Positions 13,424 to 47,973 of a stretch of DNA of 64,000 nucleotides are shown in pieces; positions within the stretch are counted from its first letter, which is position 1; the number at the start of each line of letters is the position of its first letter. Origin of the DNA: Gemmatimonadota bacterium (lineage in GTDB: Bacteria; Gemmatimonadota; Gemmatimonadetes; Longimicrobiales; Gaopeijiaceae). A program made the translations under genes and the position numbers. Under the pieces are notes generated by a model, which did no database searches, was not told the DNA's origin, and saw only the letters and a program-made list of their open reading frames with translations. Where the stretch lies: the NCBI GenBank assembly GCA_030827315.1, contig JAURER010000010.1, positions 24,121 through 88,120 of the forward strand, read 5' to 3'.

Positions 13424-14113
13424 ATGCGCCGCGTGGCGACACTCTACCGAACGACCGTCGGTAAAAAAGTCCTGATGGCCGTCTCGGGCGTCGTGCTGTT
13501 TGGATTCGTTTTCGTCCACATGCTGGGAAACCTCAAGATGCTGTTCCCGGCCGCGGACGGGCACTACGCGATGGACGTATATGCGGAGTTCCTGCGCGAA
13601 GTCGGATATCCCCTCCTTCCGCACGAAGGCGTTCTCTGGTTGGCGCGGTTCGTTCTGCTCGCGGCCGTGGGCGTGCACGTCGTGTCCGCGGTCCAGCTGA
13701 CGCGGCTGAGCCGGGCGGCACGCCCCGCCGGCTATGCGAAGGAGGAGAGCCTGAGCCTCTCGTACGCCTCGCGCACCATGCGGTGGGGCGGGGTGATCCT
13801 CCTGCTCTTTATCGTCTACCACCTCCTCCACTTCACCACGGGCCAGGCCCATTCGACGTTCGTGGCCGGGGCCGTGCATCAGAATTACGTGGCCGCCTTT
13901 CGCAGCCCCCTGGTCTTCGGGGTCTACTTCGTGGCCCAGGCCGCGCTCTGCCTGCACCTCTACCACGGCGTGTGGAGCTTCTTCCAGACCCTCGGGCTGA
14001 GCCACCCCAGGTACAACCACCTGCGCAGGCCGTTCGCCGCGGGCTTCGCCCTGGTCGTCTTCGTCGGATTCCTCACGCCTCCGGCGCTGGTCCTGGCCGG
14101 CGTCATCTCCTGA
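13424..14113 (+). CDS. sdhC: Succinate dehydrogenase cytochrome b subunit
   Basis: [32 protein letters not shown], several TM segments, immediately upstream of sdhA. Confidence 0.9.
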
Positions 14114-14150
14114 CGGCGCCCCCCGGCGTCGCGGAAAGGTCCATTCAGCC

Positions 14151-16064
<1,914 letters not shown>

Positions 16065-16065
16065 C

Positions 16066-16836
16066 ATGAAGCTGACCCTCCATGTCTGGCGCCAGGACGG
16101 TCCGAACGACAAGGGCCGCCACGAGCGGTACGAAGCCGACGACGTCTCCGAGCACATGTCCTTCCTCGAGATGCTCGACGTGGTCAACGAGCGGCTCACG
16201 GAGCAGGGGAAGGAGCCTATCGCCTTCGAGCACGACTGCCGCGAGGGGATCTGTGGCTCGTGCGGCATGATGATCAACGGCGTACCGCACGGTCCGAAGT
16301 CGCTGACCACGGCGTGCCAGCTCCACATGCGCACCTTCCACGACGGCCAGGAGATCTGGATCGAGCCTTGGCGCGCCACCGCGTTTCCGGTCATCAAGGA
16401 CCTGGTGGTGGATCGGGCCGGCTTCGACCGGATCATCGCCTCGGGCGGGTACATCTCGATCCGCACCGGAAGCGCCCCGGACGGCAACGCCATCCCGATT
16501 CCGAAGGCCGATTCCGACGCGGCGTTCGACGCGGCCACCTGCATCGGCTGCGGGGCGTGCGTGGCGGCGTGCCCGAACGCGTCGGCCATGCTGTTCACTT
16601 CGGCGAAGGTGGCCCATCTCGGTCTGCTGCCGCAGGGCCAGACCGAACGGTGGGATCGCGTCCTCGCGATGGTGGACCAGCACGACGCCGAGGGCTTCGG
16701 AAACTGCACCAACCACGGCGCGTGCCAGGAAGCCTGCCCGAAAGGGATCAGCATCGATTACATCGCGCAGCTCAACCGCGATCTGATTCGGGCGACGCTG
16801 AGAGCGAAGCCGGTCGAGGCAGGCAAGGACGCCTGA
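16066..16836 (+). CDS. sdhB: Succinate dehydrogenase / fumarate reductase iron-sulfur subunit
   Basis: [43 protein letters not shown] cysteine clusters. Confidence 0.96.
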
Positions 16837-16986: not shown

Positions 16987-19542
16987 ATGATGCCCAGTTC
17001 AGCTTCCCGGCTCTTCCCGACCGCCCTGGTCCTCCTGCACGGCTTCGCGATGGCGTCCGACCCGGCCCCGGCGGCCGCGCAGACGACGCACCGCCTCGTT
17101 GCCGGACCCGCCACGGTCGCCTTCGGGCATTACGACCCCGCGAAGCCCGGTGTGCTGCGTATTCGACCCGGCGACGTCGTCGAGGTCACCACGATGCTCA
17201 CCAGCAGCCCGACGCGTCTGGTCGAGATGGGCCTTCCGGCCGAAGAGGTCCAGCCCAACCTGGCCGCCATCTACGACCAGGTGACCGACCGGGGACCCGG
17301 CGGGCATATCCTGACGGGGCCGATCCACGTGGAGGGTGCCGAGCCGGGCGACGTGCTCGAGGTGCGCATCCTGTCGGTGGACTACTCGATTCCCTATGGC
17401 TACAACGGGTGCAGCGGCTTCGTGCGCGATCTGTGTGACGCGGATCGACGTTCGCGCCTGATCCGCATCGACACGAAGAATCACCGGGCGCAGATCGCGC
17501 CCGGGGTGACCGTGCCCCTGCGGCCGTTCTTCGGGAGCATGGGGGTGGCGCCTCCCCCGGACTCGGGCCGCGTCAGCTCGGTGCCCCCGGGGCGTCACGC
17601 CGGCAACATGGACCTGAAGGATCTGGTCGCGGGGACGCGCCTCTTCGTGCCGGTCTGGGTCGAGGGGGCGCTCTTCGAGGTGGGCGACGGGCACGCGGCC
17701 CAGGGCGACGGGGAGGTCAACCAGACCGGGCTGGAGACGTCGCTCGAGGGTCGTCTCGAATTCCGGCTCCACAAGCGGGGCGGACTCGACTGGCCACGGG
17801 CGGAGACCGATACGCACCACATTCTCATGGGCTTCGCGCCGGATCTCGAGGAGGCGACGGAAATCGCGATCCGCGAGACCGTCGAGTTCCTTCAGGAGCG
17901 ACTCTCTATTTCTCAGGGGGAAGCGTACTCCGTCGTCTCGATGGCCGTCGACCTCCGGATCACGGAGCTCGTCGACCAGAACGTCGGCGTGCATGCGATG
18001 GTCGCGAAGACGCTTCTCGGCGAGATTCCCTCGGAGGTCGACGTCCTCATCCGTGGCGGCATGGTCTATGACGGCTCCGGTTCCGAGGGCGCCGTGCGCG
18101 ACGTGGGCGTCAGCGCCGACCGCATCGTCTTCGTGGGTGACGCGGCCGCGGCCGGGGTGAGCGGGCGCAGGGTCGTCGACGCCGCCGGACTGATCGTCTC
18201 ACCCGGCTTCATCGATCCGCACGCCCACGCGCAGGAGGACCTCACGTCGGCCGAGCGCGAGCGCCGCGAAAACGTCAACTACCTCATGCAGGGGGTAACC
18301 ACCGTCGTGGTCGGCAACGACGGTCACGGCACCTGGGACGTGGCCGCCGAGCGCACCGCCATGGAGAGGCAGGGCATCGGGACGAACGCCGCGCTGCTCG
18401 TTGGCTTCGGCTCGGTGCGCGGCGAGGTCATGGGCATGCGTGACGAGGCTCCGACGCCCCGGGAGCTCGATCGAATGAAGGACCTGGTGGATCAGGCGAT
18501 GCGTGACGGAGCCGTCGGCCTCGCCACCGGGCTCTTCTACGCCCCGCAGAGCTTCTCGACCACCGAAGAGGTCGTCGAGATGGCGAAGGTGGCGGCCGCC
18601 CGCGGCGGCGTCTACGACTCGCACATGCGCGACGAGAGTTCCTACACCGTCGGCCTGACGGGTGCGGTCGACGAAGTCATCGAAATCGCCGAGCGCGCCG
18701 GAATTCGGGCCAACATCTCCCACATCAAGGCGCTGGGCGTCGACGTCTGGGGACAGAGCGCCGACGTCGTCGAGAGAATCCGCGAGGCCCGGATGCGCGG
18801 CCTGATCGTGACCGCCGACCAGTACCCGTATGAGGCGAGCGGGTCTTCGCTGAGCGCTTCGCTGCTTCCCCGGTGGGCGCAGGCGGGCGGACAGGACGCC
18901 CTGCTCGCTCGCTTCGACGACGCGGCGACCCGGGAGCGGCTCGAGGCCGACATGCGGGACAACATGCGACGCCGCAACGGCCCCGGCGCCATGCTCATCA
19001 CGGGGGGGCGGGACGCGTCGATCCGCGGGATGACGCTCGCCGAGGTGGCCGAGGCACGCGGGCTCGATCCCATCCGTGCCGCGATCGAGATCATCCGCGA
19101 CGGCGGAGCCGGCATCGGGTCGTTCAACATGGACGAAGGCGACATCCGCACCTTCATGCAGGCAGAGTTCGTCATGACCGGGTCGGACGGCTCCGACGGG
19201 CACCCCCGCAAGTACGGGACCTACGCCAGAAAGCTCCGGACGTACGTGCTCGACGGCGACGTGATCTCCATGGCCCGGATGGTCCGGGCGTCGAGCGCGC
19301 AGCCCGCCGAGGTGTTCGGGCTCACGGACCGGGGGCGGATCGCGGTGGGGGCGTACGCCGACCTGGCGGTCTTCGACCCCGCGACCGTCCGCGATCGGGC
19401 GACCTTTCTCGAGCCGACACTGCTGGCGACCGGGATGCGCTACGTTCTCGTCAACGGCAGCTTCGCAGTTGACGGGGGAGAGCCGACCGGCAGCATGGAC
19501 GGAAGGGTTCTCCGAAAGGACGGGCGGCCGGTCTCGCAATAG
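16987..19542 (+). CDS. Exported fusion: acetamidase/formamidase (FmdA/AmdA-like) domain + N-acyl-D-amino-acid deacylase domain
   Basis: Signal peptide MMPSSASRLFPTALVLLHGFAMASDPAPAAAQ. FmdA part: GGHILTGPIHVEGAEPGDVLEVRI, AGNMDLKDL, GDGEVNQTGLE. D-aminoacylase part from about nt 18030: VDVLIRGGMVYDGSG, SPGFIDPHAHAQED, YDSHMRDES, ISHIKALG, DQYPYEASGSSL, GSDGSDGHPRKYGTYARKL. Confidence 0.9.
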   Translation: MMPSSASRLFPTALVLLHGFAMASDPAPAAAQTTHRLVAGPATVAFGHYDPAKPGVLRIRPGDVVEVTTMLTSSPTRLVEMGLPAEEVQPNLAAIYDQVTDRGPGGHILTGPIHVEGAEPGDVLEVRILSVDYSIPYGYNGCSGFVRDLCDADRRSRLIRIDTKNHRAQIAPGVTVPLRPFFGSMGVAPPPDSGRVSSVPPGRHAGNMDLKDLVAGTRLFVPVWVEGALFEVGDGHAAQGDGEVNQTGLETSLEGRLEFRLHKRGGLDWPRAETDTHHILMGFAPDLEEATEIAIRETVEFLQERLSISQGEAYSVVSMAVDLRITELVDQNVGVHAMVAKTLLGEIPSEVDVLIRGGMVYDGSGSEGAVRDVGVSADRIVFVGDAAAAGVSGRRVVDAAGLIVSPGFIDPHAHAQEDLTSAERERRENVNYLMQGVTTVVVGNDGHGTWDVAAERTAMERQGIGTNAALLVGFGSVRGEVMGMRDEAPTPRELDRMKDLVDQAMRDGAVGLATGLFYAPQSFSTTEEVVEMAKVAAARGGVYDSHMRDESSYTVGLTGAVDEVIEIAERAGIRANISHIKALGVDVWGQSADVVERIREARMRGLIVTADQYPYEASGSSLSASLLPRWAQAGGQDALLARFDDAATRERLEADMRDNMRRRNGPGAMLITGGRDASIRGMTLAEVAEARGLDPIRAAIEIIRDGGAGIGSFNMDEGDIRTFMQAEFVMTGSDGSDGHPRKYGTYARKLRTYVLDGDVISMARMVRASSAQPAEVFGLTDRGRIAVGAYADLAVFDPATVRDRATFLEPTLLATGMRYVLVNGSFAVDGGEPTGSMDGRVLRKDGRPVSQ

Positions 19543-24110: not shown

Positions 24111-26041
<1,931 letters not shown>

Positions 26042-26959: not shown

Positions 26960-28258
26960 TCACTCCTGCGAGATGGGGTTGCCCGTCAGGAAGTCCACGG
27001 CCAGGCTCGCCAGCGCCCGGACGCCGATGGGCAGTGCGCGCTCGTCGGCGTAGAAGTACGGCGAGTGGTTCGGGTGGACGAGCGAAGGGTCGTCCGCGCC
27101 CACGCCGAGCCCGATGAAGAGCCCTGGGGCTTCCTCCGCGAAGTAGGAGAAGTCCTCGGCGCCGGTGGAGGCGGGAAGAACCTGCGCCCCCTCGCCGGCC
27201 ACGCGCCGCAGGGTGGGCACCATCCGGTTCGTCAGCGCCGGATCGTTCACCGTCACCGGGTAGCCGCGGTCGATCGTGACCTCCGCCTCCGCGCCGTTGG
27301 CCGCGGCGATGCTTTCGGCGAGCCGGCGGACACGCTCGTGCACGCGCTCCCGAATGTCGGGGTCGAGCGTGCGGATCGTGCCGATCATGAGCACGGTGTC
27401 CGGAATGATGTTACCCCGGTTTCCGCCCTCGATCTGCCCGATGGTGACGATGGCTGCGGAGTTCGTGAGGTCCACCTGGCGGCTCACGACGGTCTGCAGC
27501 CCGTTGATGATCTGGGCCGAGGTGACGATCGGGTCGACACCACCCCAAGGCATGGCGCCGTGCGTCTGGACACCGCGGACGACGATCCGCAGCCCGTCGG
27601 CGGCGGCGAGCATGCCGCCCGTGCGGTACGCGATCGTGCCCACCGGCGTCGGGAAGACGTGGAGGCCGAACACCGCGTTGACCCCCTCCATGGCGCCGTC
27701 GGCGATCATGGGGGCCGCTCCGCCCGGGCCTTCCTCTGCCGGCTGGAAGAGGAACTTCACCGTACCGGGCAGGTCGCCGCGCATGCCGGCGAGCACCGAT
27801 GCGACGCCCATGAGGATGGCGACGTGGTTGTCGTGTCCGCACGCATGCATCACGCCGACCTCACGGCCCTGCCACTCCGCCCTGACCTTCGACGCGAACG
27901 GGACGTCTGCGAGCTCGGTCACCGGCAGGCCGTCCATGTCCGCGCGCAGCGCGACCGTGGGGCCGGGCCGTCCGCCTCTCAGAACGCCGACGACGCCGGT
28001 GCCGCCCACACCCGTCTCGACGTCGATCCCCAGCGAACGCAGGTGCTCCGCGACGAGGCCGGCCGTGCGGAACTCCTGCATCCCCAGCTCCGGGTTGGCG
28101 TGGACGTCGCGGCGCCAGGCGACCACGTCGTCGTTGATGGCGGCCGCCAGCTCGTCGAGCTGGGCATGCAGGATCGACGCGTCCTGGGCGGACGCGGGCG
28201 CGGACGCAGCGACGGCGTAGGCGACGGTGAAGGCGCCGATGCGGATGATTCGCAGCAT
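26960..28258 (-). CDS. Exported M20 family amidohydrolase (hippurate/IAA-amino acid hydrolase type)
   Basis: Signal peptide to ASAQ; RDVHANPELGMQEFRTAGLVAEHL, ALRADMDGLPVTE, HACGHDNHVAILMGVA, GAEDFSYFAEEAPGLFIGLG. Confidence 0.93.
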   Translation of the reverse strand: MLRIIRIGAFTVAYAVAASAPASAQDASILHAQLDELAAAINDDVVAWRRDVHANPELGMQEFRTAGLVAEHLRSLGIDVETGVGGTGVVGVLRGGRPGPTVALRADMDGLPVTELADVPFASKVRAEWQGREVGVMHACGHDNHVAILMGVASVLAGMRGDLPGTVKFLFQPAEEGPGGAAPMIADGAMEGVNAVFGLHVFPTPVGTIAYRTGGMLAAADGLRIVVRGVQTHGAMPWGGVDPIVTSAQIINGLQTVVSRQVDLTNSAAIVTIGQIEGGNRGNIIPDTVLMIGTIRTLDPDIRERVHERVRRLAESIAAANGAEAEVTIDRGYPVTVNDPALTNRMVPTLRRVAGEGAQVLPASTGAEDFSYFAEEAPGLFIGLGVGADDPSLVHPNHSPYFYADERALPIGVRALASLAVDFLTGNPISQE

Positions 28259-29507: not shown

Positions 29508-30749
29508 ATGCCGGTCGATCGCCTGACCACCGTTCTCGAACACCATGTCGCGGGGCTGCAGGAGGCAGGCACCGCCAAGGGCGCCGAGAAGGTCGTCGTC
29601 GAAGTGCGCCCCGCCCGAGGGGGCCGCGGCCCCCGTTTCCTCCTCGAAGGGCAGGGGGACAAGGAGTTCATCCGCATGAACTCCAACTCCTATCTGGGGA
29701 TGGGGCTTCGCCCCGAGGTGATGGAGGCGGAGGAGAAGGGTACGGCCAGGTACGGAGCCGGGCCCGGGGCGGTCCGCTTCATCTCGGGCAGCTACGCGCC
29801 CCACCTCGCGCTCGAGCGCGAGCTCGCCGCGTTCCACGGACGAGATGCGGGGATGATCTTTTCGTCGGCGTACGCCACGATCGTCTCGACCATCGTCCCG
29901 CTGGTGACGCCGGACACGGTGCTGATCTCCGACGAGCTGAATCACAACTGCATCATCAACGCGATGCGGCTCGCGCGTCCGCAGGGCAAGGCGGTCTATG
30001 CGCACAACGACATGGCGCAGCTCGAGGCCGCCCTCAAGGATTGGAGCGGGAAGGCGAAGCGCGCGCTCGTCGTGACCGACGGGATCTTCTCGATGCGCGG
30101 TGATCACGCGCCGCTCGACGAGGTCATGGCGCTGTGCGCGAAGTACGACGCCGGCTTTGAGGAGAACGCGGTCTGCGTCGTCGACGACTCGCACGGCGTC
30201 GGAGCATTCGGCCGCACGGGCCGCGGCGTCGAGGAGTACACCGGCGCCCCGAAGGTCGACATCCTGGTCGGCACCCTCGGCAAGGCGTTCGGCGTGAACG
30301 GTGGGTACGTCGTCGGCAATGCCGCGACGATCGCCTTCCTGCGCGAGTCGTCGCCGATGTACATCTACTCCAACCCCATCACGGTCGGCGAAGCCGAGGC
30401 CGCGCGGGCTGCACTCCGGATCGTCGCGAGCCCCGAGGGCGAAGCTCTTCTCGAGCGGCTGCGCGGGCTCACGCGGCGCTTCGAGGAAGGGCTCGGCCGG
30501 GTCGGCATCGAGACGATCCCGGGCGAACATCCGGTGGTTCCGCTCATGATCCGCGATACGAAGAAGACGCACGACCTGGTGCGGCACCTCTTCGAGCACG
30601 GCGTGCTGGTCACCGGGCTGGCCTTCCCCGTCGTGCCGCGCGGCGACGAGGAGATCCGCGCTCAGGTGAACGCCGACCACACCGAATCCGACATCGACTA
30701 CGTGCTCTCGGTCCTGGAGGCCTATCGGCGCGTGGAGGGACTCGCATGA
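29508..30749 (+). CDS. kbl: 2-amino-3-ketobutyrate CoA ligase / glycine C-acetyltransferase-like aminotransferase
   Basis: MNSNSYLGMGLRPEVMEAEEKGTARYGAGPGAVRFISGSYAPHLALERELAAFHGRDAG; VDDSHGVGAFGRTGRG; VGTLGKAFGVNGGYV. Confidence 0.87.
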   Translation: MPVDRLTTVLEHHVAGLQEAGTAKGAEKVVVEVRPARGGRGPRFLLEGQGDKEFIRMNSNSYLGMGLRPEVMEAEEKGTARYGAGPGAVRFISGSYAPHLALERELAAFHGRDAGMIFSSAYATIVSTIVPLVTPDTVLISDELNHNCIINAMRLARPQGKAVYAHNDMAQLEAALKDWSGKAKRALVVTDGIFSMRGDHAPLDEVMALCAKYDAGFEENAVCVVDDSHGVGAFGRTGRGVEEYTGAPKVDILVGTLGKAFGVNGGYVVGNAATIAFLRESSPMYIYSNPITVGEAEAARAALRIVASPEGEALLERLRGLTRRFEEGLGRVGIETIPGEHPVVPLMIRDTKKTHDLVRHLFEHGVLVTGLAFPVVPRGDEEIRAQVNADHTESDIDYVLSVLEAYRRVEGLA

Positions 30750-31918
30750 CCGACTTCATCTCCCGGCGCACGCTTGTGCGCGGTGCCGCCACGGCCGCGG
30801 GCGCCGCCCTCGCCGCGCCGTTCCTCAACCTCGGGCGGCATCGCCTCTTCGCGTGGAGCGAGCAGGAGTACACGCGCCGCTGCATCGACCTGGTCGAGGG
30901 GTCGCTCGTCATCGACATGCTCGGACTCACGACGCTGTCCGGTGAGCGACGGCAGAAGTGGGGTCCGGACTACGCCGGCCTCACCGAAGCCGACGCGACC
31001 GAGTTCCGTATGTCCGGCATCGACGTCTTCCACATCGCCAGCGGCGTCGGAGGCCGGACGAGCGAGCAGGCGTATCAGAACGTGCTGGCGTGGTGTGCCT
31101 CGTGGAACGGCGTCGTCGCCGGCCGACCGGATCTGTTCGTGCGCATCGACTCGGCCGCCGACCTGGCTTCCGTGCACGGGTCCGACCGCGTGGGCCTCCT
31201 CGTCGGCGTCCAGAACTCCGCGCATTTCCGTGACGCGGCCGACGTCGAGACGTTCCACGCGCTCGGGCAGCGGGTGAGCCAGCTCACCTACAACAGCCGG
31301 AACATGATCGGGAACGGATCCACGGAACGGGTGGACGGCGGCATCAGCGACTTCGGCGTCGCAGTGGTCGAGGAGATGAACCGCGTCGGCATGGCGGTCG
31401 ACGTATCGCACTCGGGTGACCGCACCACGCTCGACGCATGCGAGGTGTCGAGGGCGCCCGTCCTGTACACGCACTCCAACGCGCGCGCGCTCAACCCCGG
31501 GCACCCTCGCTGCAAGACGGACGAGGCGATTCGCCAGATGGCCCGGACCGGCGGCGTCATGGGCATCACCGGCGTGCGGAACTTCGTGACGAAGGAAGAG
31601 CCGACCACCGTCGAACACTACATCGACCATTTCGACCACGTCCGGGATCTGGTCGGGGTCGAACACCTCGGCATCGGGTCGGACATCGATCTGCACGGCT
31701 ACGACGACATGCCGCCTGCGGAGTACGACGGTCTGAAGGCTGCCTATAAGGGTTCCTACGCGTTCCGCGACAAGATCGACATCGACGAGATCGCCCACCC
31801 GAAGCGCGTCTTCGACGTCACCGACGGGCTGATCCGGCGGGGGTACACGGACGAGCACATCCGCGGGATCCTGGGCGGCAATTTCCAGCGCGTCCTCGGA
31901 GAGATCTGGGGGGCATGA
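30746..31918 (+). CDS. M19 family (membrane-type) dipeptidase, exported
   Basis: TAT-like N-terminus SRRTLVRGAATAAGAALAAP; VIDMLGL, VGVQNSAHF, VDVSHSGDRTTLDACEVSRAPVLYTHSNARALNPHPR-type motifs. Confidence 0.88.
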   Translation: MTDFISRRTLVRGAATAAGAALAAPFLNLGRHRLFAWSEQEYTRRCIDLVEGSLVIDMLGLTTLSGERRQKWGPDYAGLTEADATEFRMSGIDVFHIASGVGGRTSEQAYQNVLAWCASWNGVVAGRPDLFVRIDSAADLASVHGSDRVGLLVGVQNSAHFRDAADVETFHALGQRVSQLTYNSRNMIGNGSTERVDGGISDFGVAVVEEMNRVGMAVDVSHSGDRTTLDACEVSRAPVLYTHSNARALNPGHPRCKTDEAIRQMARTGGVMGITGVRNFVTKEEPTTVEHYIDHFDHVRDLVGVEHLGIGSDIDLHGYDDMPPAEYDGLKAAYKGSYAFRDKIDIDEIAHPKRVFDVTDGLIRRGYTDEHIRGILGGNFQRVLGEIWGA

Positions 31919-32763
31919 GGCCGGGGCGCTCGCGCCCCCTCGGCGCGCTCGTGAGGGGGTGGGCTTTGGTCGGCTGCCTCGTCGCAGCGGGCTGCTCGAG
32001 CCCGGCGCCGATGGACTTCGCGGCCGTGTTCGACGGCACCGCCGGGCGCTGGATCGACCTGTCCTGGTCGTTCGGACCCTCGACCATCTACTGGCCCACG
32101 GACACGCTGGGCTTTCGACTGGCGGAGCTGGCCTACGGACGTACCGAGGCCGGCTACTTCTACTCGTCGTACGAGCTCGGAACCGCCGAGCACGGCGGTA
32201 CACACCTCGATGCGCCGATCCACTTCGCGGAGGGCGGCCTTCCCGCCGACGAGATCCCTCTGGCGGGCCTCATCGGGCCCGCGGCGGTGGTGGATGTCCA
32301 GGAGCGGGCACACCCGGACTATCTCGTCACGGTCGTCGACCTCGAGGGGTGGGAGGCCCGGCACGGCGAGCTTCCCGACGGGGGCATCCTGCTACTCCGC
32401 ACGGGCTGGGGCTCGCGCTGGGGCGATCGGACGGCGTACCTGGGCACGGAGGCGACCGGTCCCGACGCGGTCCCGCAGCTGCACTTTCCGGGACTCGCGC
32501 CCGAGGCGGCGGAGTGGCTGGTGGACCGCCGGGGCATCGTGGCGGTCGGCATCGACACGCCCAGCATCGACTACGGGCAGTCGGCAGACTTCCGTTCGCA
32601 CGTCACGCTGTACTCCGCCAACATCTCCGGGTTCGAGAACGTCGCGAACCTCGAGCTCATGCCGGAGAGCGGCGCGTTCGTCGTGGCGCTGCCCATGAAG
32701 ATCGAGGGGGGCAGTGGCGGTCCCCTGCGCATCGTCGGCTTCGTCCCGTCCCCGGGCCGCTGA
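31915..32763 (+). CDS. Cyclase family / kynurenine formamidase-like lipoprotein
   Basis: Lipobox LVAAGCSS; ELGTAEHGGTHLDAPIHFAEGG (HxGTHxDxPxH metal motif). Confidence 0.88.
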   Translation: MRPGRSRPLGALVRGWALVGCLVAAGCSSPAPMDFAAVFDGTAGRWIDLSWSFGPSTIYWPTDTLGFRLAELAYGRTEAGYFYSSYELGTAEHGGTHLDAPIHFAEGGLPADEIPLAGLIGPAAVVDVQERAHPDYLVTVVDLEGWEARHGELPDGGILLLRTGWGSRWGDRTAYLGTEATGPDAVPQLHFPGLAPEAAEWLVDRRGIVAVGIDTPSIDYGQSADFRSHVTLYSANISGFENVANLELMPESGAFVVALPMKIEGGSGGPLRIVGFVPSPGR

Positions 32764-35438: not shown

Positions 35439-38228
35439 ATGGACAGGATCACGCGGCGACCGGTGTCTCGACGGCTCGGCACCCTGGCGGCGCTGGCGGC
35501 CGGCGGGCTCCTGGCTGCGCAGACGGCGAGCGCGCAGCTCTCGACGCTCACCCCCGGGGATTACGGTCGATGGGAGCGCCTCGGCGCCTTCGAGCTCGAC
35601 CCCTCCGGTCGCTGGCTCGTCGCGGCGATCACCCGCATGGACGACACGTCCGAGCTCCGCCTCCGACGGTCCGACGGCGACGGCGACGTGCTCGTGATGG
35701 AGTTCGGTACGGCACCTGCCTTCGGCGCGGACGGGCGCTTCATGGCGTACCGGAAAGGCGTTCACCCCGAGGCGCGCGAAGCGGCCGACGAGCCAGTGGC
35801 CGATCGGCTGGGGCTCGTCGAGCTCGGGGCTTCGCGGGATACGGTGCTCTTCGACGTGACCGGCTTCGCCTTCCGCGACGACGGTCGGTGGCTCGCTGCG
35901 CACGCGGTCGCGCCCTCCGACTCGGTCGGCGGCGACCTGGTCGTCATGGACCCGGCGTCCGGAGCCCAGACCGTGATCGGCAACGTCTCCTCCTTCGCCT
36001 GGCAGGACGAGGGCTCACTGCTGGCGGCGACGCTGCGCACGGCGTGGGGCACGTCCAACGGTGTGGTCCTGTTCGACCCCGACGCGGGGACTTTGCGCAC
36101 GCTGGAATCGGGCGACGCGCAGTACGTCGCGCTCGCGTGGCGAGACGACTCGGCCCAGCTCGCCGTGATGCGGTCGTTCGAGAACGAGGACCGGCGTGAA
36201 GCCTCGCACGACGTGCTCGTGTGGAACGACGTGCGGGCGGGTGGCCCCACGGTCCTTGCCGCGCTGGAGCACCCGGCGCTGGGGCGGGACGTCCGCATCA
36301 CGCCCTTTTCCGGCATCTCGTTCTCCCAGGACGGGCGCACGCTCTTCGTTGGCGTGCGGCCATGGGAGCCCCGCCCGGAAGCCGGAGACGGGGACGATAC
36401 GGACGAGCTGGAGGCAGGCGAGGAGGACGACGCGGGGAATTCCGAGGCCTCGGACGACGTTGAGCCCGCCGACGTCCAGGTGTGGCACTGGAACGACGAC
36501 CAGGTCCTGCGCGCCCAGGAATACGGCGCGGGGCGCATCGCCCGGCAGACGATGCTCGCGGCCTGGCATTCCGACGACGGCCGCTTCGTCCTGCTGGGCG
36601 ACGACCTGGACGAGCCCGTGACGGTGGTCGCGGGTGGCGCGTGGGGCGTCGTCCCGGACTACGGCCCGTACCTGTTCGAGCGGCGCTTCGGTTCGCGCGC
36701 CGCCGACTGGTACAGGGTCGACGTCGCCACCGGTGCCCGCGCCCTGATCGGGGAGCGCCTCGACTTCGGTCTGACCTCGCACGCCGATCTCGCCGTCCTG
36801 ATGCTGTACCATGAAGACCGTTGGTCGTTCGTCGATCTCGCGACGCTCGACGCAACGGTCGTGGGCGAGGGTCGAAGCTTCACGCAGCCGCTGAAGGACT
36901 ACGACTACCCCGGTCCGCGTCCGTCGTGGGGCTTCGGCGCGTGGCTCGACGACGGCTCCGCGGCGCTCGTCTACGACCGCAACGACGTCTGGCGTGCCGA
37001 TGTCCGGACCGGAGCGCTGACACGGCTGACCGACGGGGCGGAAACGGGGCGGGAGTACCGCGTGACCGACCCGGAGGCCGAAGGCGGCTTCCGATCCGGC
37101 GTGGATCCGCTCCGGCCGGACGCGCCGGTCTGGTACGCCGTTCGTGACCTGACCACGAAGGCTTCGGGCTACGCGCGTGGCGTGAGCGCCGGTGGCGTCG
37201 AGGTTCTTCGGATGGAGGATGCGCGGGTGGCCGGGCTCGCGCGGGCCCGCGACGCCGATCGTTACGCCTTCCGGTCGGAACGCTGGGACGACTCGCCGGA
37301 CGTCTTCGTGTCCGGCGACGGGCTCCGCGACCCCCACCAGGTGACCGAGACCAACCCCTTCCAGTCGGACTTCGCCTGGGGGCGCACCGAGCTCCTCGAC
37401 TACACGACGGACGCCGGTCACGATCTCCAGGCGATCCTCGTCTATCCCGCTGGCTTCGAGGAGGGCCGCCGCTACCCGCTGATCCTCTATCAGTACGAGC
37501 GGCTCTCCGACGGGCTCCACGCATATGACCCGCCCAGCGAGAGGGACTATTACAGCTACCAGGTCTGGTCGCAGCAGGGGTACTTCGTGCTGATGCCCGA
37601 CATCGTCTACGAGCCGGGCCGACCCGGGCCGTCCGCCCTCGACGCCGTCGACCACGCCCTCGATGCCGCGGTCGCCACCGGGCACGTGGATCCGGAACGC
37701 ATGGGCCTGATCGGCCACTCCTGGGGGGGATACCAGGCCACCTACCTGCCGACACGGACCGACCGCTTCGCGGCGTCCGTGGCCGGTGCGGCCATCACGA
37801 ACTTCCTGAGCTTCATGGGCGCCGTGCACTGGAACGGCGGTCTCCCCGAGACCGGCCACTGGGAAACCGGCCAGGCGCGGATGGCCGCGCCGTACTGGGA
37901 CGACATGGAGGGACATCTCGAGAGCTCGCCGGCAAACTTCATCGCGGATCTGGAGACGCCGATGCTGCTCATGCACGGCGACGCCGACGGCGTGGTCGAC
38001 TTCTACCAGGGGCTCGAGTTCTACAACTACGCGCGCCGGGCCGGAAAGGAGGTCGTGCTCCTCGTCTACCCCGACGCCGATCACGGTCTCACGGAACGGA
38101 CGCAGCAGGTCGACTACCACCGGCGGATCCTCCAGTGGTTCGGGCACTGGCTGAAGGGTGAGCCCGCAGCGCCCTGGATCACCGAGGGAGAGAGCTGGGT
38201 CGAGCGGGAGCGAAGACGGGGCGGGTGA
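35439..38228 (+). CDS. S9 family (prolyl oligopeptidase-type) peptidase, exported
   Basis: Signal-like N-terminus to ASAQ; beta-propeller; catalytic MGLIGHSWGGYQATYLPTRTDRFAASVAG, HGDADGVVDFYQGLEFYN, DADHGLTE. Confidence 0.92.
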   Translation: MDRITRRPVSRRLGTLAALAAGGLLAAQTASAQLSTLTPGDYGRWERLGAFELDPSGRWLVAAITRMDDTSELRLRRSDGDGDVLVMEFGTAPAFGADGRFMAYRKGVHPEAREAADEPVADRLGLVELGASRDTVLFDVTGFAFRDDGRWLAAHAVAPSDSVGGDLVVMDPASGAQTVIGNVSSFAWQDEGSLLAATLRTAWGTSNGVVLFDPDAGTLRTLESGDAQYVALAWRDDSAQLAVMRSFENEDRREASHDVLVWNDVRAGGPTVLAALEHPALGRDVRITPFSGISFSQDGRTLFVGVRPWEPRPEAGDGDDTDELEAGEEDDAGNSEASDDVEPADVQVWHWNDDQVLRAQEYGAGRIARQTMLAAWHSDDGRFVLLGDDLDEPVTVVAGGAWGVVPDYGPYLFERRFGSRAADWYRVDVATGARALIGERLDFGLTSHADLAVLMLYHEDRWSFVDLATLDATVVGEGRSFTQPLKDYDYPGPRPSWGFGAWLDDGSAALVYDRNDVWRADVRTGALTRLTDGAETGREYRVTDPEAEGGFRSGVDPLRPDAPVWYAVRDLTTKASGYARGVSAGGVEVLRMEDARVAGLARARDADRYAFRSERWDDSPDVFVSGDGLRDPHQVTETNPFQSDFAWGRTELLDYTTDAGHDLQAILVYPAGFEEGRRYPLILYQYERLSDGLHAYDPPSERDYYSYQVWSQQGYFVLMPDIVYEPGRPGPSALDAVDHALDAAVATGHVDPERMGLIGHSWGGYQATYLPTRTDRFAASVAGAAITNFLSFMGAVHWNGGLPETGHWETGQARMAAPYWDDMEGHLESSPANFIADLETPMLLMHGDADGVVDFYQGLEFYNYARRAGKEVVLLVYPDADHGLTERTQQVDYHRRILQWFGHWLKGEPAAPWITEGESWVERERRRGG

Positions 38229-38372: not shown

Positions 38373-40022
38373 ATGCGACGCACCGTCCTTGCCCTCGCGG
38401 CCCTCGCCGCGGGCCTCGCCCACGCTGTTCCTGCGCGCGCGCAGGCCGACCCGCGCCTCGACGCCCTCAAGGACGAGGCCCTTCGGATGGTCGAAGCCGA
38501 CGCGAAGCAGGTTCAGGAGATCGTCGACATGCTCTTCAGCTTCGGCGAGCTCGGCTTCCAGGAGTTCGAGACGCAGCGCTACCTGACGGGCCTGCTCGAG
38601 GACGCGGGCTTCGAGATCGAGCTCGGTGTGGCAGGCATGCCGAGCGCGTGGACCGCCCGCTGGTCCAACGGGACCGGGCGTCCGGTCATCGCGCTCGGGT
38701 CCGACGTCGACGGCATCCCGCAGTCCAACCAGAAGCCGGGCGTCGGCTATCGCGAGGCGATCCTCTCCATGGCTCCGGGCCACGGGGAGGGCCACAACTC
38801 CGGGCAGGCCGTGAACATCGTGGCCGCGCTCAACGTGAAGGAGCTGATGGAGCGCGAGAACATCGACGGCACGCTGCTCATCTGGCCGGGCATCGCGGAG
38901 GAGCAGCTTGGCTCCAAGGCGTTCTTCGTGCGCGACGGCGTGTTCGACGGGGTCGACGTGAACCTGTTCACGCACGTGAGCTCCAACTTCAACGTGTCGT
39001 GGGGACAGGGCGGCGGAAACGCGCTCGTCTCCGCGCAGTTCCGCTTCACGGGGGAGACGGCCCACTCCGCGGGCTCGCCGTGGCGGGGACGCTCGGCGCT
39101 CGACGCGGTGATGCTCATGGCCCAGGCCTGGGAGTTCAAGCGCGAGCACCTGCGCCCGCCGCAGCGCTCGCACTACATCATCGTCGACGGGGGCGACCAG
39201 CCGAACGTGGTGCCGCAGACGGCGACCATCTGGTTCTACTTCCGCGAGGTGGACTACGAGCACGTGGTGGAGATGTACGACGCGGCAAGGCTGATGGCGC
39301 AGGGTGCGGCGCTCATGACCGGGACGCAGATCGACACGATCATGACCGTGGGCTCCGCGTGGAGCCGTCACTTCAACAAGCCGGTCGCCGAGGTGACGTA
39401 CGGCAACGTTCAGCGGGTGGGGCTGCCCGACTGGACCGAGGACGACCACACTCTGGCCAACGGGCTCCAGCGCGAGCTCGGGCAAGAGGAGCGGGGCATG
39501 CCCACGGAAATCGACGAGCTCGAGGGCCCGGTCGACCTCTCACGGTCGCTGGGCGGCGGCTCCGACGACATCGGTGACGTCTCGTGGAACATGCCCACCG
39601 TCACGCTGCGCTTTCCGGCCAACATGCCGGGTGGGCCGGGACACAACTGGGCGAACGGGATCGCCATGGCGACGCCGATTGCCCACAAGGGCTCGCTCGC
39701 TGGCGCCAAGGTCCAGGCGCTGACCCTCCTCGACCTCTTCCTCGACGGCGAGACCGTCGACGCGGCCTGGGACTACTTCAACGACGTCCAGACGGCCGAG
39801 ACGACCTACACGCCGTTCATCACGCCGGACGACAGGCCCGCCATCTGGCTCAACGCCGACATCATGCAGCAGTGGCGCGAGCAGATGCGCCCGTTCTACT
39901 ACGATCCCGACCGGTACGACACGTACCTCGAGCAGCTCGGCATCGAGTATCCGACCGTGCGCACGCGGCCGGTCAGCGAGCAGGATCGTGACGGCGGCGC
40001 CCATCCGGGTGGTGGCGCGTGA
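38373..40022 (+). CDS. Exported M20 (AbgB-like) amidohydrolase, copy A
   Basis: Signal to ARAQ; FSFGELGFQEFETQRYLTGLLEDAGFEIELGVAGMPSAWTARW; GHGEGHNSGQAVNIVAA; GETAHSAGSPWRGRSALDAVMLM. Confidence 0.92.
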   Translation: MRRTVLALAALAAGLAHAVPARAQADPRLDALKDEALRMVEADAKQVQEIVDMLFSFGELGFQEFETQRYLTGLLEDAGFEIELGVAGMPSAWTARWSNGTGRPVIALGSDVDGIPQSNQKPGVGYREAILSMAPGHGEGHNSGQAVNIVAALNVKELMERENIDGTLLIWPGIAEEQLGSKAFFVRDGVFDGVDVNLFTHVSSNFNVSWGQGGGNALVSAQFRFTGETAHSAGSPWRGRSALDAVMLMAQAWEFKREHLRPPQRSHYIIVDGGDQPNVVPQTATIWFYFREVDYEHVVEMYDAARLMAQGAALMTGTQIDTIMTVGSAWSRHFNKPVAEVTYGNVQRVGLPDWTEDDHTLANGLQRELGQEERGMPTEIDELEGPVDLSRSLGGGSDDIGDVSWNMPTVTLRFPANMPGGPGHNWANGIAMATPIAHKGSLAGAKVQALTLLDLFLDGETVDAAWDYFNDVQTAETTYTPFITPDDRPAIWLNADIMQQWREQMRPFYYDPDRYDTYLEQLGIEYPTVRTRPVSEQDRDGGAHPGGGA

Positions 40023-41416
40023 GACCCTCCCGCCGCCGGGCGGCCGCGGTCGCGGTCGCCGTCTTCGCCCTCACGGCCGCTCCCGCGGCGGGCCAGAACT
40101 GGGACCGGGCGCGGGACGAGGCGGTCGAGATCCTGCGGAGCATGATCCGCATCGACTCCAGCGATCCGGCCAACGGTGGAGAGACGAAGGTCGTGGAGTA
40201 CGTCCGCGACCTGTTGGCCGCGGAAGGGATCGAGTCGCGCATCTACGAGATGGAGCCCGGGCGCGGCAACCTCGTGGCCCGGATCCGGGGTAACGGCTCG
40301 AAGAGGCCCATCCTTCTGATGGGGCACATCGACGTCGTGGGCGTGGAGCCCGACCTGTGGTCGGTCGACGCCTTCGAGGGAATCGTCAAGGACGGCTACG
40401 TCTGGGGGCGCGGCGCCCAGGACGACAAGGGGATGTCCGCCGTCGCGCTGCAGGTCTTCATCATGATCAAGCGCTCCGGCGTGGAGCTCGACCGGGACGT
40501 CATCTACATGGCGAACGCGGGAGAGGAGGGCAGTCCGCGCGTCGGCATCGAGTACATGATCCGCGAGCACTTCGACGAGATCGACGCCGAGTTCGCGCTC
40601 AACGAGGGGGGCTCCACGACGGTCCAGGGCGGGCGGCACGTCGTAGGTGTCGCCACCACCGAGAAGGTGGGGCGCGGCATGCAGCTCGTGGCGCGCGGAA
40701 CGTCCGGGCACGGCTCCCGGCCGAGGCCGGACAACCCGATCGTCCACCTCGGCGCGGCCGTGGGCAAGCTCGGTACCTGGCAGCCGCCCATGCGGCTCAA
40801 CGACACGACGCGCGAGTGGTTCCGGCGCATGGCCGAGGTTCTTCCGCCCGAGCACGCCTTTCTCTACCGGAACGTCGAGGATCCCGACCTCACCGAGATG
40901 ATCCAGGAGAAGCTGCGGCTTACGGACTTCACCGCCAATTCGACGCTCAGGACCTCGATCTCCCCGAACATCATCGAGGGAGGTTTCCGCAGCAACGTGA
41001 TCCCCGGCGACGCGACGGCGCGCCTCGACATCCGTGCGCTCCCCGACGAGGATGTCGCCTGGCTCGTCTCCGAAATCGAGCGGGTCATCGACGATCCGCT
41101 CGTCGAGGTCATCCCGCCCAGCGGGCCCGGCCGGCCGGTGAGCCCGCCCATGCCCATGGACTCCGAGATGTTCCGGGCGCTCGAGAACGCCCAGAAGGCG
41201 GTGTTCCCGGGTGGTGTCACGGTCCCCGTCATGCTCACCGGCGCGACGGACTCCGCCCAGCTGCGGGCGGCCGGGGTGCTCACGTACGGGATCGGTTCGG
41301 TGATGGGGGACGAGGGAGCCCTCGCGCACGGCAACGACGAGCGCGTCTCGGTGGAGGGTGTCGGGCAGTTCGTGCGCTTCCTCCACCACGTGGTCATCGA
41401 GGTCGCCGGCTCCTGA
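40019..41416 (+). CDS. Exported M20/M25/M40 family metallo-hydrolase
   Basis: Signal to AAGQN; LRSMIRIDSSDPANGGETKVVEYVRDLLAAEGIES; LLMGHIDVVGVEPDLWSVDAFEG; WGRGAQDDKGMSA. GTGA overlap with the upstream gene. Confidence 0.93.
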   Translation: MRPSRRRAAAVAVAVFALTAAPAAGQNWDRARDEAVEILRSMIRIDSSDPANGGETKVVEYVRDLLAAEGIESRIYEMEPGRGNLVARIRGNGSKRPILLMGHIDVVGVEPDLWSVDAFEGIVKDGYVWGRGAQDDKGMSAVALQVFIMIKRSGVELDRDVIYMANAGEEGSPRVGIEYMIREHFDEIDAEFALNEGGSTTVQGGRHVVGVATTEKVGRGMQLVARGTSGHGSRPRPDNPIVHLGAAVGKLGTWQPPMRLNDTTREWFRRMAEVLPPEHAFLYRNVEDPDLTEMIQEKLRLTDFTANSTLRTSISPNIIEGGFRSNVIPGDATARLDIRALPDEDVAWLVSEIERVIDDPLVEVIPPSGPGRPVSPPMPMDSEMFRALENAQKAVFPGGVTVPVMLTGATDSAQLRAAGVLTYGIGSVMGDEGALAHGNDERVSVEGVGQFVRFLHHVVIEVAGS

Positions 41417-44538: not shown

Positions 44539-46209
44539 ATGGAAACGTCTGGAAACGAAGCGCCACTTCTGCGCGCGCTCGGGAGGCTCGAGCGGCGCGA
44601 CTTCCTGCGGGCGGCGGCCGCGGCGGTCGCCTCGGGAGCGGCGTCGCCCGCAGTGCTGCTCGCCGCCGAGCCGGACCCGGTCCGGCGTGAGGAGCTCGCC
44701 CGGACGATCCTGCCCCAGTCGCAGGAGGGGCCGCCGCCCGTACCGCTCGGCAACGGGGAGCATCCGGCGCTCGTGTACCAGGCGTACCCGGGCGGCACGG
44801 GCTCGCTCTACCGGAAGTGGCACGACGAGGGGATCGATCCGTTTGTGCGTCACCCGGTGCCGATCGCGCCGTGGGAAGGCGCCGTTCCCGGCGATCCGAC
44901 GGAGATCGCGTTCCTTCCCGTGCACCGCCTGGCCGCACTCATCCGGGAGCGGCGCATCACGTCGGTCGAGCTGACCGAGATCTATCTGGAGCGCATGAAA
45001 CGCTACGACCCGGTGCTCCTGTGCGCGGTGTCGATCCTGGAAGGGCGGGCGATGGAGGAGGCCCAGCAGGCCGACGCCGACCTACGGGCGGGTACCTGGC
45101 GCGGCCCCCTGCACGGGATCCCGTACGGCGTGAAGGATCTTTTCTCCGTCGACGGGACGAGGACCACGTGGGGCTCGGCGGACTTCCAGGACCAGATCAT
45201 CAACGTCGACGCCGACGTCGTCGTGCGCCTGCGTGACGCCGGTGCCGTGCTCATCGCGAAGCTCGCGACGGGCGAGTTCGCATCCGGAGACGGCTGGTTC
45301 CGGGGTCGTACCCGCAACCCCTGGAACACGGAGGAGGGGTCGAGCGGCTCCTCGGCCGGGCCGGGCTCCGCGACCGCGGCCGCCACCGTGGCGTTCGCCA
45401 TCGGAACCGAGACCCAGGGCTCGATCGTCTCTCCCGCCCGGCGCAACGGGCTGAGCGCGCTGCGTCCGACCTTCGGTCGCGTCAGCCGCCACGGGGGCAT
45501 GGTCCTGTCGTGGAGCATGGACAAGACCGGCCCCATGTGCCGGAATATCCTCGACTGCGCGCTCGTCTTCAACGAGATCCACGGAGCGAGCGACAACGAT
45601 CCCGCGTCGCTCACGGCTCCGTTCCGCTTCGATCCTGAGGCGGACATCGGCGCGTACCGGATCGGGTACGACGAGGACGCGCCCGAGGAGTTCCTCACCC
45701 AGCTCGCCGACATGGGCGTGGAGCTCCGGGAGATGAACCCCGTACCTCAGGGTGGGTCGAACTCCCTCGGAGTCGAGTCGTCGGCCGCCTTCGACTTCCA
45801 CGTGGCCCCCGACGGAGTCGAGCCCGAGCCGGTGCAGGAAGGCCTCGATCCGGCGGAGGAGCGGCGGCGGACCCGCTTTCGGCGCGGTCGTGACACGCGG
45901 GCGCTCGAGTACGTCCAGAGCCAGCGTCGTCGGCTCCTCGTCATGAAGGAGATGCAGGAGGCGATGGAGGGCTTCGACATGTTCGTGTCGGGGTCGGGCC
46001 ACGTCGGGCTAACCAATCAGACGGGACACCCTGCGGCCGTGGTCCAGTACGGCTTCGGAGTGCGGGACCCGGAGGCGGACGCTCCGACCACGATGCCGCT
46101 CACGACGACGCTGCTGGGTGCTCTCTTCGCGGATGACCGGATCCTCGAGGTGGCCCACGCCTTCCAGAAGCGCACGGACTGGCACCTGCGGCGACCTTCG
46201 CTCGACTGA
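44539..46209 (+). CDS. Amidase-signature family amidase, TAT-like export signal
   Basis: ERRDFLRAAAAAVASGAASPAVLLA; LHGIPYGVKDLFSVDGTRTTWGSADF; EEGSSGSSAGPGSATAAATVAFAIGTETQGSI. Confidence 0.9.
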   Translation: METSGNEAPLLRALGRLERRDFLRAAAAAVASGAASPAVLLAAEPDPVRREELARTILPQSQEGPPPVPLGNGEHPALVYQAYPGGTGSLYRKWHDEGIDPFVRHPVPIAPWEGAVPGDPTEIAFLPVHRLAALIRERRITSVELTEIYLERMKRYDPVLLCAVSILEGRAMEEAQQADADLRAGTWRGPLHGIPYGVKDLFSVDGTRTTWGSADFQDQIINVDADVVVRLRDAGAVLIAKLATGEFASGDGWFRGRTRNPWNTEEGSSGSSAGPGSATAAATVAFAIGTETQGSIVSPARRNGLSALRPTFGRVSRHGGMVLSWSMDKTGPMCRNILDCALVFNEIHGASDNDPASLTAPFRFDPEADIGAYRIGYDEDAPEEFLTQLADMGVELREMNPVPQGGSNSLGVESSAAFDFHVAPDGVEPEPVQEGLDPAEERRRTRFRRGRDTRALEYVQSQRRRLLVMKEMQEAMEGFDMFVSGSGHVGLTNQTGHPAAVVQYGFGVRDPEADAPTTMPLTTTLLGALFADDRILEVAHAFQKRTDWHLRRPSLD

Positions 46210-46302: not shown

Positions 46303-47973
46303 ATGCGGCGTGCAATCTTGGGTGCCGTGGCTTCCGCCATGGCTCTCACCTTCCTTCCCGGCACGGCTGCGGCCCAGGCCGATGCCCGCCTCGAATCCCT
46401 CAAGGAGGAAGCCCTCCAGATGGTCGAGGCACGTTCGAAGCTGGTGCAGGAGATCATCGATCACCTCTTCTCGTTCGGTGAGCTCGGAATGCAGGAGTTC
46501 GAGACCCAGCGCTATCTGACGGGCCTCCTGGAGGACGAGGGCTTCGACATCGAGCTGGGTGTGGCCGGCATGCCTTCGGCCTGGACCGCGCGCTGGTCGA
46601 ACGGGTCCGGCGAACCGGTTATCGCGCTCGGTTCCGACGTCGACGGCATCCCGCAGTCCAATCAGAAGCCGGGCGTCGCCTATCGGGATCCGATCCTCGG
46701 GCTCGCCCCCGGCCACGGCGAAGGGCACAACTCGGGACAGGCCGTGAACATCGTCGCCGCGATCGCCGTGAAGGAGCTCATGGAGCGCGAGAACATCGAT
46801 GGGACGCTCATGCTCTGGCCGGGCGTCGCCGAGGAGCAGGTCGCCTCGAAGGCGTACTTCGTGCGCGACGGCGTCTTCGACGACGTAGACGTGAACCTCT
46901 TCACCCACGTCGGGTCGGGGCTGGGCGTCAGCTGGGGTCAGGCCGGCGGCAACGCGCTGTGGTCCGTCCAGTACAAGTTCAGCGGCGAGACCGCGCACTC
47001 CGCCGGATCCCCGTGGCGCGGCCGTTCCGCGCTCGACGCGATCATGCTCATGGCCCAGGCGTGGGAGTTCAAGCGTGAGCATCTCGAGCCCGCGGCGCGC
47101 TCGCACTACATCATCGTCGACGGAGGTGACCAGCCGAACGTCGTCCCGCAGCGTGCGACGATTTGGTTCTACTTCCGCGAGCGCGATTACGAGAAGACGA
47201 AGGCGATGTACGACGCGGCCGCTCTCATGGCGGAGGGCGCCGCGCTTATGACCGGGACCACGCTCGATACCATCATGACGGTCGGCTCGGCGTGGGGTCG
47301 CCACTTCAGCAAGCCGGTGGCGGAAGTCACCCACGCCAACATGCAGAGGGTCGGCATGCCCGAGTGGAGCGCGGACGACGTCCGCTTCGCCGAGGCGTTC
47401 CAGGCCGAGATGGGCGTCGAGGTCAGCGGGCTCGAAACCGAGGTCGGGGAGCTCGGCGGGCCGGTCGACCTTTCCCGCTCGCTCGGCGGCGGTTCGGACG
47501 ACATCGGTGACGTGTCGTGGAACATGCCGACGGTGACCATGAGCTTTCCGTCCAACATGCGTGGGGGGCCCGGCCACAACTGGGCCAACGGCATCGCCAT
47601 GGCGACGCCCATCGCCCACAAGGGTGGTGTCGCGGGCGCCAAGGTTCAGGCCCTGACGCTTCTCGACCTCTTCCTGGACGGTCAGACGGTCGACGCGGCC
47701 TGGGAGTACTTCAACACCGTGCAGACGGCCGAGCAGGAATACATCCCCTTCATCACGGAATACGATCAGCCGGCGATCTGGCTGAACGAAGGGATTATGG
47801 CGCAGTGGCGGGAGCAGATGCGCCCCTTCTACTACGACGCCTCCAGGTACGAGACGTACCTCGAGCAGCTCGGCATCGAGTACCCGACCATCCGGACCCG
47901 CCCGGTGTCGGAGCAGGACGATCAGGACGGTGCGCTCACCCCGGACGCGGAGCGCGGCCCGGGTGGCGCATAG
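46303..47973 (+). CDS. Exported M20 (AbgB-like) amidohydrolase, copy B (paralog of 38373-40022)
   Basis: FSFGELGMQEFETQRYLTGLLEDEGFDIELGVAGMPSAWTARWSNGSGEPVIALGSDVDGIPQSNQKPGV; near-identical domain blocks to copy A. Confidence 0.92.
   Translation: MRRAILGAVASAMALTFLPGTAAAQADARLESLKEEALQMVEARSKLVQEIIDHLFSFGELGMQEFETQRYLTGLLEDEGFDIELGVAGMPSAWTARWSNGSGEPVIALGSDVDGIPQSNQKPGVAYRDPILGLAPGHGEGHNSGQAVNIVAAIAVKELMERENIDGTLMLWPGVAEEQVASKAYFVRDGVFDDVDVNLFTHVGSGLGVSWGQAGGNALWSVQYKFSGETAHSAGSPWRGRSALDAIMLMAQAWEFKREHLEPAARSHYIIVDGGDQPNVVPQRATIWFYFRERDYEKTKAMYDAAALMAEGAALMTGTTLDTIMTVGSAWGRHFSKPVAEVTHANMQRVGMPEWSADDVRFAEAFQAEMGVEVSGLETEVGELGGPVDLSRSLGGGSDDIGDVSWNMPTVTMSFPSNMRGGPGHNWANGIAMATPIAHKGGVAGAKVQALTLLDLFLDGQTVDAAWEYFNTVQTAEQEYIPFITEYDQPAIWLNEGIMAQWREQMRPFYYDASRYETYLEQLGIEYPTIRTRPVSEQDDQDGALTPDAERGPGGA

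Follow-up and report, generated by a model that had tools for sequence, protein, structure and literature searches.

A derived fusion of an FmdA/AmdA-type amidase with a D-aminoacylase-like amidohydrolase in Gemmatimonadota

The fused gene and its domains

The window analysed here, by which we mean the whole stretch of 64,000 nucleotides from one Gemmatimonadota contig, contains at positions 16987-19542 of the + strand a single gene in which an acetamidase/formamidase (FmdA/AmdA) domain is joined to a D-aminoacylase-like amidohydrolase domain. Its translation comprises 851 codons without a stop, so that the uninterrupted frame described by the first-pass annotation stands, and the two halves are alike in composition (GC 69-70% in both; GC3 0.87 in the FmdA half and 0.90 in the deacylase half). 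All features of the gene given below lie on the + strand. The protein begins with a signal-peptide-like N-terminus (aa 1-32, 17082 being its last nucleotide and 16987 its first), recognised by sequence inspection and hydropathy, with the hydrophobic core ALVLLHGFAMA and an Ala-rich end before QTTHRLV. By the same means this region is seen to diverge freely in sequence while keeping its hydrophobicity in each of the three fusion-bearing species and in standalone relatives, in keeping with the earlier claim of an exported polypeptide. The FmdA/AmdA domain follows (aa 33-345, 17083-18021), then a junction of about four residues, IPSE (18022-18033), and the D-aminoacylase-like domain (aa 350-847, 18034-19527). 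Measured against the ends of standalone FmdA proteins and the starts of standalone deacylases the joint reads LLGE-IPSE-VDVLIRGG, with almost no linker between the domains, which refines the domain start previously placed at about nt 18030.

The N-terminal half belongs to Pfam family PF03069 (FmdA_AmdA; E 7e-33, 114.5 bits against a gathering cut-off of 27) and a sequence search of the PDB matches aa ~107-345 to the acetamidases 2F4L, 2II1, 3TKK, 5UBU and 3B9T. The family motifs are present as HAGNMD (aa 204-209) and GDGHAAQGDGE (aa 233-243). The domain is thus complete, as had been proposed, and in its motifs and fold it resembles other members of the family, including the Thermotoga maritima (2F4L) and Bacillus halodurans (2II1) proteins, the Methylophilus methylotrophus formamidase and the haloarchaeal Amd3. 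Unlike these it carries a putative export signal and a C-terminal deacylase, and it scores 69.2 bits against the formamidase equivalog NF045496, below the curated cut-off of 500, so that 'formamidase' is here the name of a family and not of an activity.

C-terminal to this domain, PF07969 (Amidohydro_3) is matched with an E value of 4e-24, and in the PDB sequence search aa 351-846 correspond to the Alcaligenes faecalis D-aminoacylase (AfDam; 1RJP, E 5e-65, and 1M7J) as well as to the N-acyl-D-glutamate deacylase 3GIP and to OngB (9KB1). An AlphaFold2 model built from an alignment of 28 sequences (mean pLDDT 85.5, pTM 0.68) recovers both claimed folds when searched with Foldseek, with TM scores on the target of 0.87 for D-aminoacylase 1M7J and 0.87-0.89 (about 0.88) for acetamidase 2F4L; residues 243-245, in the GDGE motif of the FmdA half, have pLDDT values below 50. 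Family match, sequence match and fold together bear out the earlier description of a complete D-aminoacylase domain.

The active site of the deacylase half

The roles of the metal-binding, catalytic and carboxylate-anchoring residues have been described for the D-aminoacylase/OngB enzymes (PMC12017989), and nearly all of them have a counterpart in the fused protein. The HAH motif at aa 412-414 (18220-18228) corresponds to H67/H69 of AfDam in the alpha-metal site, His546 in SHMRDE (18622-18624) to the metal ligand H220, and the segment His579 to Lys581 (18721-18729) to the metal ligand H250 and the carboxylate anchor K252. Tyr613 (18823-18825) and Arg741 in GHPRK (19207-19209) are equivalent to Y283 and R377 and complete the alpha-carboxylate anchor of the group, and Asp734 in GSDG (19186-19188) is the equivalent of the catalytic D366. 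The exception is Asp445 (18319-18321), which occupies the position of Cys96 in AfDam. A Cys/His/His site defines subtype V amidohydrolases and is reported to be strictly conserved in AfDam-, BbDam- and OngB-like enzymes (PMC12017989); the two histidines are found here and the cysteine is not. The metal-site-like motifs listed by the first-pass annotation are accordingly kept, with the subtype V Cys ligand as the one element that differs.

This replacement is not peculiar to the fused protein. Nearly all of about 60 relatives compared within the phylum have Asp at the Cys96 position, as do relatives encoded on Pseudoalteromonas and sphingomonad plasmids; a few phylum relatives have Glu or Asn, most of these also being without HxH, and a Haladaptatus D-aminoacylase retains the Cys. 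Such wide conservation in the phylum and on the plasmids argues that Asp445 is a stable variant of the deacylase metal site and not a product of decay. Set against the D-aminoacylases AfDam (1M7J), Bordetella bronchiseptica BbDam (3GIP) and the Klebsiella pneumoniae enzyme 9G5M, the deacylase half is alike in fold, HxH motif, two His ligands, catalytic Asp and Lys/Tyr/Arg anchor, and unlike them in the Asp for Cys, in its predicted export and in the amidase domain in front of it. OngB of Pseudoalteromonas prydzensis (9KB1) shares the fold and the carboxylate-anchoring residues; it keeps its Cys97, is more distant in sequence, and as a 2-acetamido-gluconate deacetylase illustrates that the D-aminoacylase fold also serves a substrate other than an N-acyl-D-amino acid. 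The residues that govern side-chain specificity (L298 in AfDam, R295 in BbDam, Q298 in OngB) lie in an insertion loop that has no reliable alignment to the deacylase half.

Conservation and rarity of the fusion

The same fusion is present in one frame in two further genomes, G001 (80% identity over aa 29-851) and G013 (75% identity over aa 8-850), and in a third, G007, the deacylase part (74% identity) sits at the edge of a contig and shares its neighbours with the window locus. Purifying selection acts on both halves, with Nei-Gojobori pN/pS among the fusion-bearing species of 0.15-0.16 in FmdA and 0.22-0.35 in the deacylase. The signal region, at 0.72-0.77, and the junction (aa 340-352), at 0.47-0.58, are relaxed by comparison. 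Two independent genomes at 75-80% identity with the junction in frame rule out an assembly error or frameshift near nt 18030, the very point at which the fusion had been thought open to challenge. At least three species have kept the joined frame intact, with purifying selection acting on it.

The architecture is rare, and the earlier view that the two enzymes are normally separate agrees with its distribution. Among 399 Gemmatimonadota genomes searched with a piece straddling the junction (aa ~229-449), it is spanned in three alone, namely the window's genome (G000), G001 and G013, all of one genus of uncultured bacteria, and a search of the family's 126 genomes gave these three again and no others; sister genera carry two genes. 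None of 1,263 matching plasmid records covers 80% of the fused protein, and a peptide-pattern scan of 85,462 GTDB species, from which records near the window may be absent, returned standalone FmdA relatives and no closer fusion. A search of the open literature found no paper on an FmdA–D-aminoacylase fusion. What is new is the combination of domains; both families are already known.

Origin of the fusion

The fused gene lies 150 bp downstream of sdhC-sdhA-sdhB (13424-16836, +), the conserved upstream neighbour of FmdA in the group, and upstream of thiC (24275-26041, +), which marks the downstream side of the locus; the names of these genes are assigned by sequence inspection. An FmdA gene likewise sits between an sdh cluster and thiC in G006, which belongs to the same genus, and in G250. 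The sdh cluster beside FmdA in G001 and G006 (L045:10576-13894 and L047:8865-12159) is of another type, 26-30% identical to that of the window and G013, which suggests that one sdh type has replaced another at a conserved locus.

Standalone FmdA orthologues with 75-85% identity are encoded by G006 and by other genera, and standalone deacylase orthologues, with about 70% identity and a signal-like N-terminus of their own, by G271 and G216. In G271, G301 and G250 both orthologues are present and not adjacent, lying about 355 kb apart on one contig in G301. Since these sister genera hold both as separate, unlinked genes, the fusion is the derived state: the FmdA gene between sdhCAB and thiC acquired at its 3' end a deacylase gene that lost its own signal peptide. 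In the deacylase tree the fused copies group together (100/98), with G271 and G216 as their neighbours. In the FmdA tree the standalone G006 protein falls beside the fused G013 protein (90/92), a grouping that makes a later loss of the deacylase half in G006 possible; a tblastn search downstream of the standalone FmdA gene of G006 for a deacylase remnant, the sign of such a fission, found none.

Genomic company and related fusions

Both families enter other fusions in the phylum. In G064 a member of the deacylase clade is fused to a complete penicillin acylase (PF01804) in a protein of 1223 aa (L123:3194-6865, -), the sole case among the 399 genomes, and in G301 and G250, two species of one genus, the deacylase carries a C-terminal Sortilin-Vps10/BNR propeller (1370 aa; L096:8866-12978, +, and L098:8681-12793, +); the genome sample held no further cases of either kind. 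G334 encodes an FmdA with a C-terminal alpha/beta hydrolase (641 aa; L103:7113-9038, +). The deacylase fusions differ from the window's protein in that their partners are other domains and are placed C-terminal, whereas here the partner is N-terminal. Unfused members of the clade also keep recurrent company and share operons with amidase and TonB-receptor genes: in G222 the gene order is AS amidase, deacylase, TonB receptor, one further protein and penicillin acylase, in G378 an AS amidase precedes the deacylase as a pair, and in G077 and G263 TonB or SusD-like genes adjoin it. This repeated linkage to penicillin acylase, AS amidase and TonB/SusC-type receptors, seen in chosen loci of genomes in which amide hydrolases are common, makes it plausible that the fused protein would take part in coupled amide hydrolysis outside the cytoplasm. 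The earlier interpretation is borne out in part, with D-amino acid derivatives, N-formyl compounds, peptidoglycan and non-ribosomal peptides as candidate substrates of a protein whose metal site departs from Cys/His/His.

On a Sphingobium plasmid (L131:724-5536) the neighbours of an Asp-type deacylase relative are dgcN-dgcA, annotated as N-acetyl-D-Glu racemase, a TonB receptor and a penicillin acylase, and such surroundings offer a lead to the natural substrate of this relative. The DgcN/DgcA N-acetyl-D-glutamate pathway was considered as a context for the fused gene and rejected, as no dgcN homologue turned up in G000 or the other f1 genomes tried; a literature search on DgcN/DgcA found no papers. 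The surroundings of the fused gene hold no D-amino-acid operon. Further along the window, positions 26960-49579 are crowded with enzymes that cleave amides and peptides: M20 hydrolases (26960-28258 and 40019-41416), M20-dimer proteins (38373-40022 and 46339-47973), an M19 dipeptidase (30746-31918), a PF04199 cyclase (32011-32763), an S9 peptidase (35463-38228) and two AS amidases (44653-46209 and 47981-49579). Besides the fused gene, the window's genome has ten D-aminoacylase-like genes (E<=1e-60) and one more FmdA. According to a published comparison, marine Gemmatimonadetes are enriched in E3.5.1.81, amiE and abgB (PMC11596202).

A proposed function and its alternatives

Genes that are fused in one lineage and separate in its relatives are a classical sign of functional linkage. 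Our preferred reading, in which we place moderate confidence, is that this real and derived fusion yields a secreted bifunctional amide scavenger, a single exported protein in which each half has an active site that hydrolyses amides. From the residues and motifs that are conserved we infer that both active sites are functional, outside the cytoplasm. In the C-terminal half the metal would be bound through His412/His414, Asp445, His546 and His579, while Lys581, Tyr613 and Arg741 would hold the alpha-carboxylate of an N-acyl amino acid and Asp734 would activate a metal-bound water that cleaves the N-acyl bond. The N-terminal half, as its family membership predicts, would release ammonia from a small primary carboxamide and leave the acid. 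Action of the two halves in series outside the cytoplasm is a more tentative proposal: an N-acyl amino acid amide might first be deamidated by the amidase half, and from the resulting N-acyl amino acid the deacylase half might next release a carboxylic acid and the amino acid, freeing nitrogen for uptake, the amidase acting first because the deacylase needs a free alpha-carboxylate. Taken in this way, the fusion suggests joint use of both reactions in nitrogen scavenging. Against action in series stand G006, of the same genus, which has the same FmdA alone, and the sister genera, in which the two enzymes are unlinked. A more specific form of the proposal, which is speculative and in our estimate doubtful, is a bifunctional exoenzyme of an undescribed kind that would remove first the amide and then the acyl group from N-acyl amino acid amides, such as amidated and N-acylated residues of cell wall or peptides, and whose deacylase belongs to an Asp-type D-aminoacylase clade with several different amide-hydrolase partners in Gemmatimonadota.

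The strongest alternative, possible though rather unlikely, holds that two active but uncoupled scavenging enzymes were joined by chance and kept since one signal peptide and promoter serve both, with no shared substrate or channelling. The separate, unlinked genes of the sister genera fit this as well, as do the relaxed junction without a linker, the high redundancy of both families in the genome and the Vps10/BNR propeller that G301 and G250 have joined to a member of this deacylase clade. Against it, the repeated linkage of the clade to amide hydrolases, albeit in chosen loci, looks more than random. It is improbable that the FmdA half has lost its catalytic role and serves the deacylase as a scaffold for secretion and oligomerisation: FmdA does occupy the ancestral locus and is the source of the signal peptide, its crystal entries contain 4-8 chains and model confidence is low at aa 243-245, but its motifs are fully kept, it is the more constrained half and standalone orthologues share 84% identity with it. 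More improbable still is a deacylase half that is inactive or of changed chemistry through the loss of its Cys ligand, an idea to which the reported strict conservation of Cys/His/His in AfDam-, BbDam- and OngB-like enzymes lends some weight (PMC12017989). The presence of Asp in nearly all of the phylum relatives and on the Pseudoalteromonas and sphingomonad plasmids speaks against it. A carboxylate at the Cys96 position works in other amidohydrolases, such as the Glu in NagA. An artefact of assembly or frameshift joining two genes, for which the 99 contigs of the window's assembly might be cited, has a negligible chance in view of the same in-frame fusion in G001 and G013 and the coding selection in both halves.

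The fusion links the FmdA amidases, about whose natural substrates little is known, with N-acyl amino acid deacylases, and thereby puts forward a testable class of substrates for both. It also draws attention to how widely Asp replaces Cys in the metal site of D-aminoacylase-like proteins, which annotation pipelines name without comment, and serves as a pointer to modular amide scavenging in a little-cultured and largely marine lineage.
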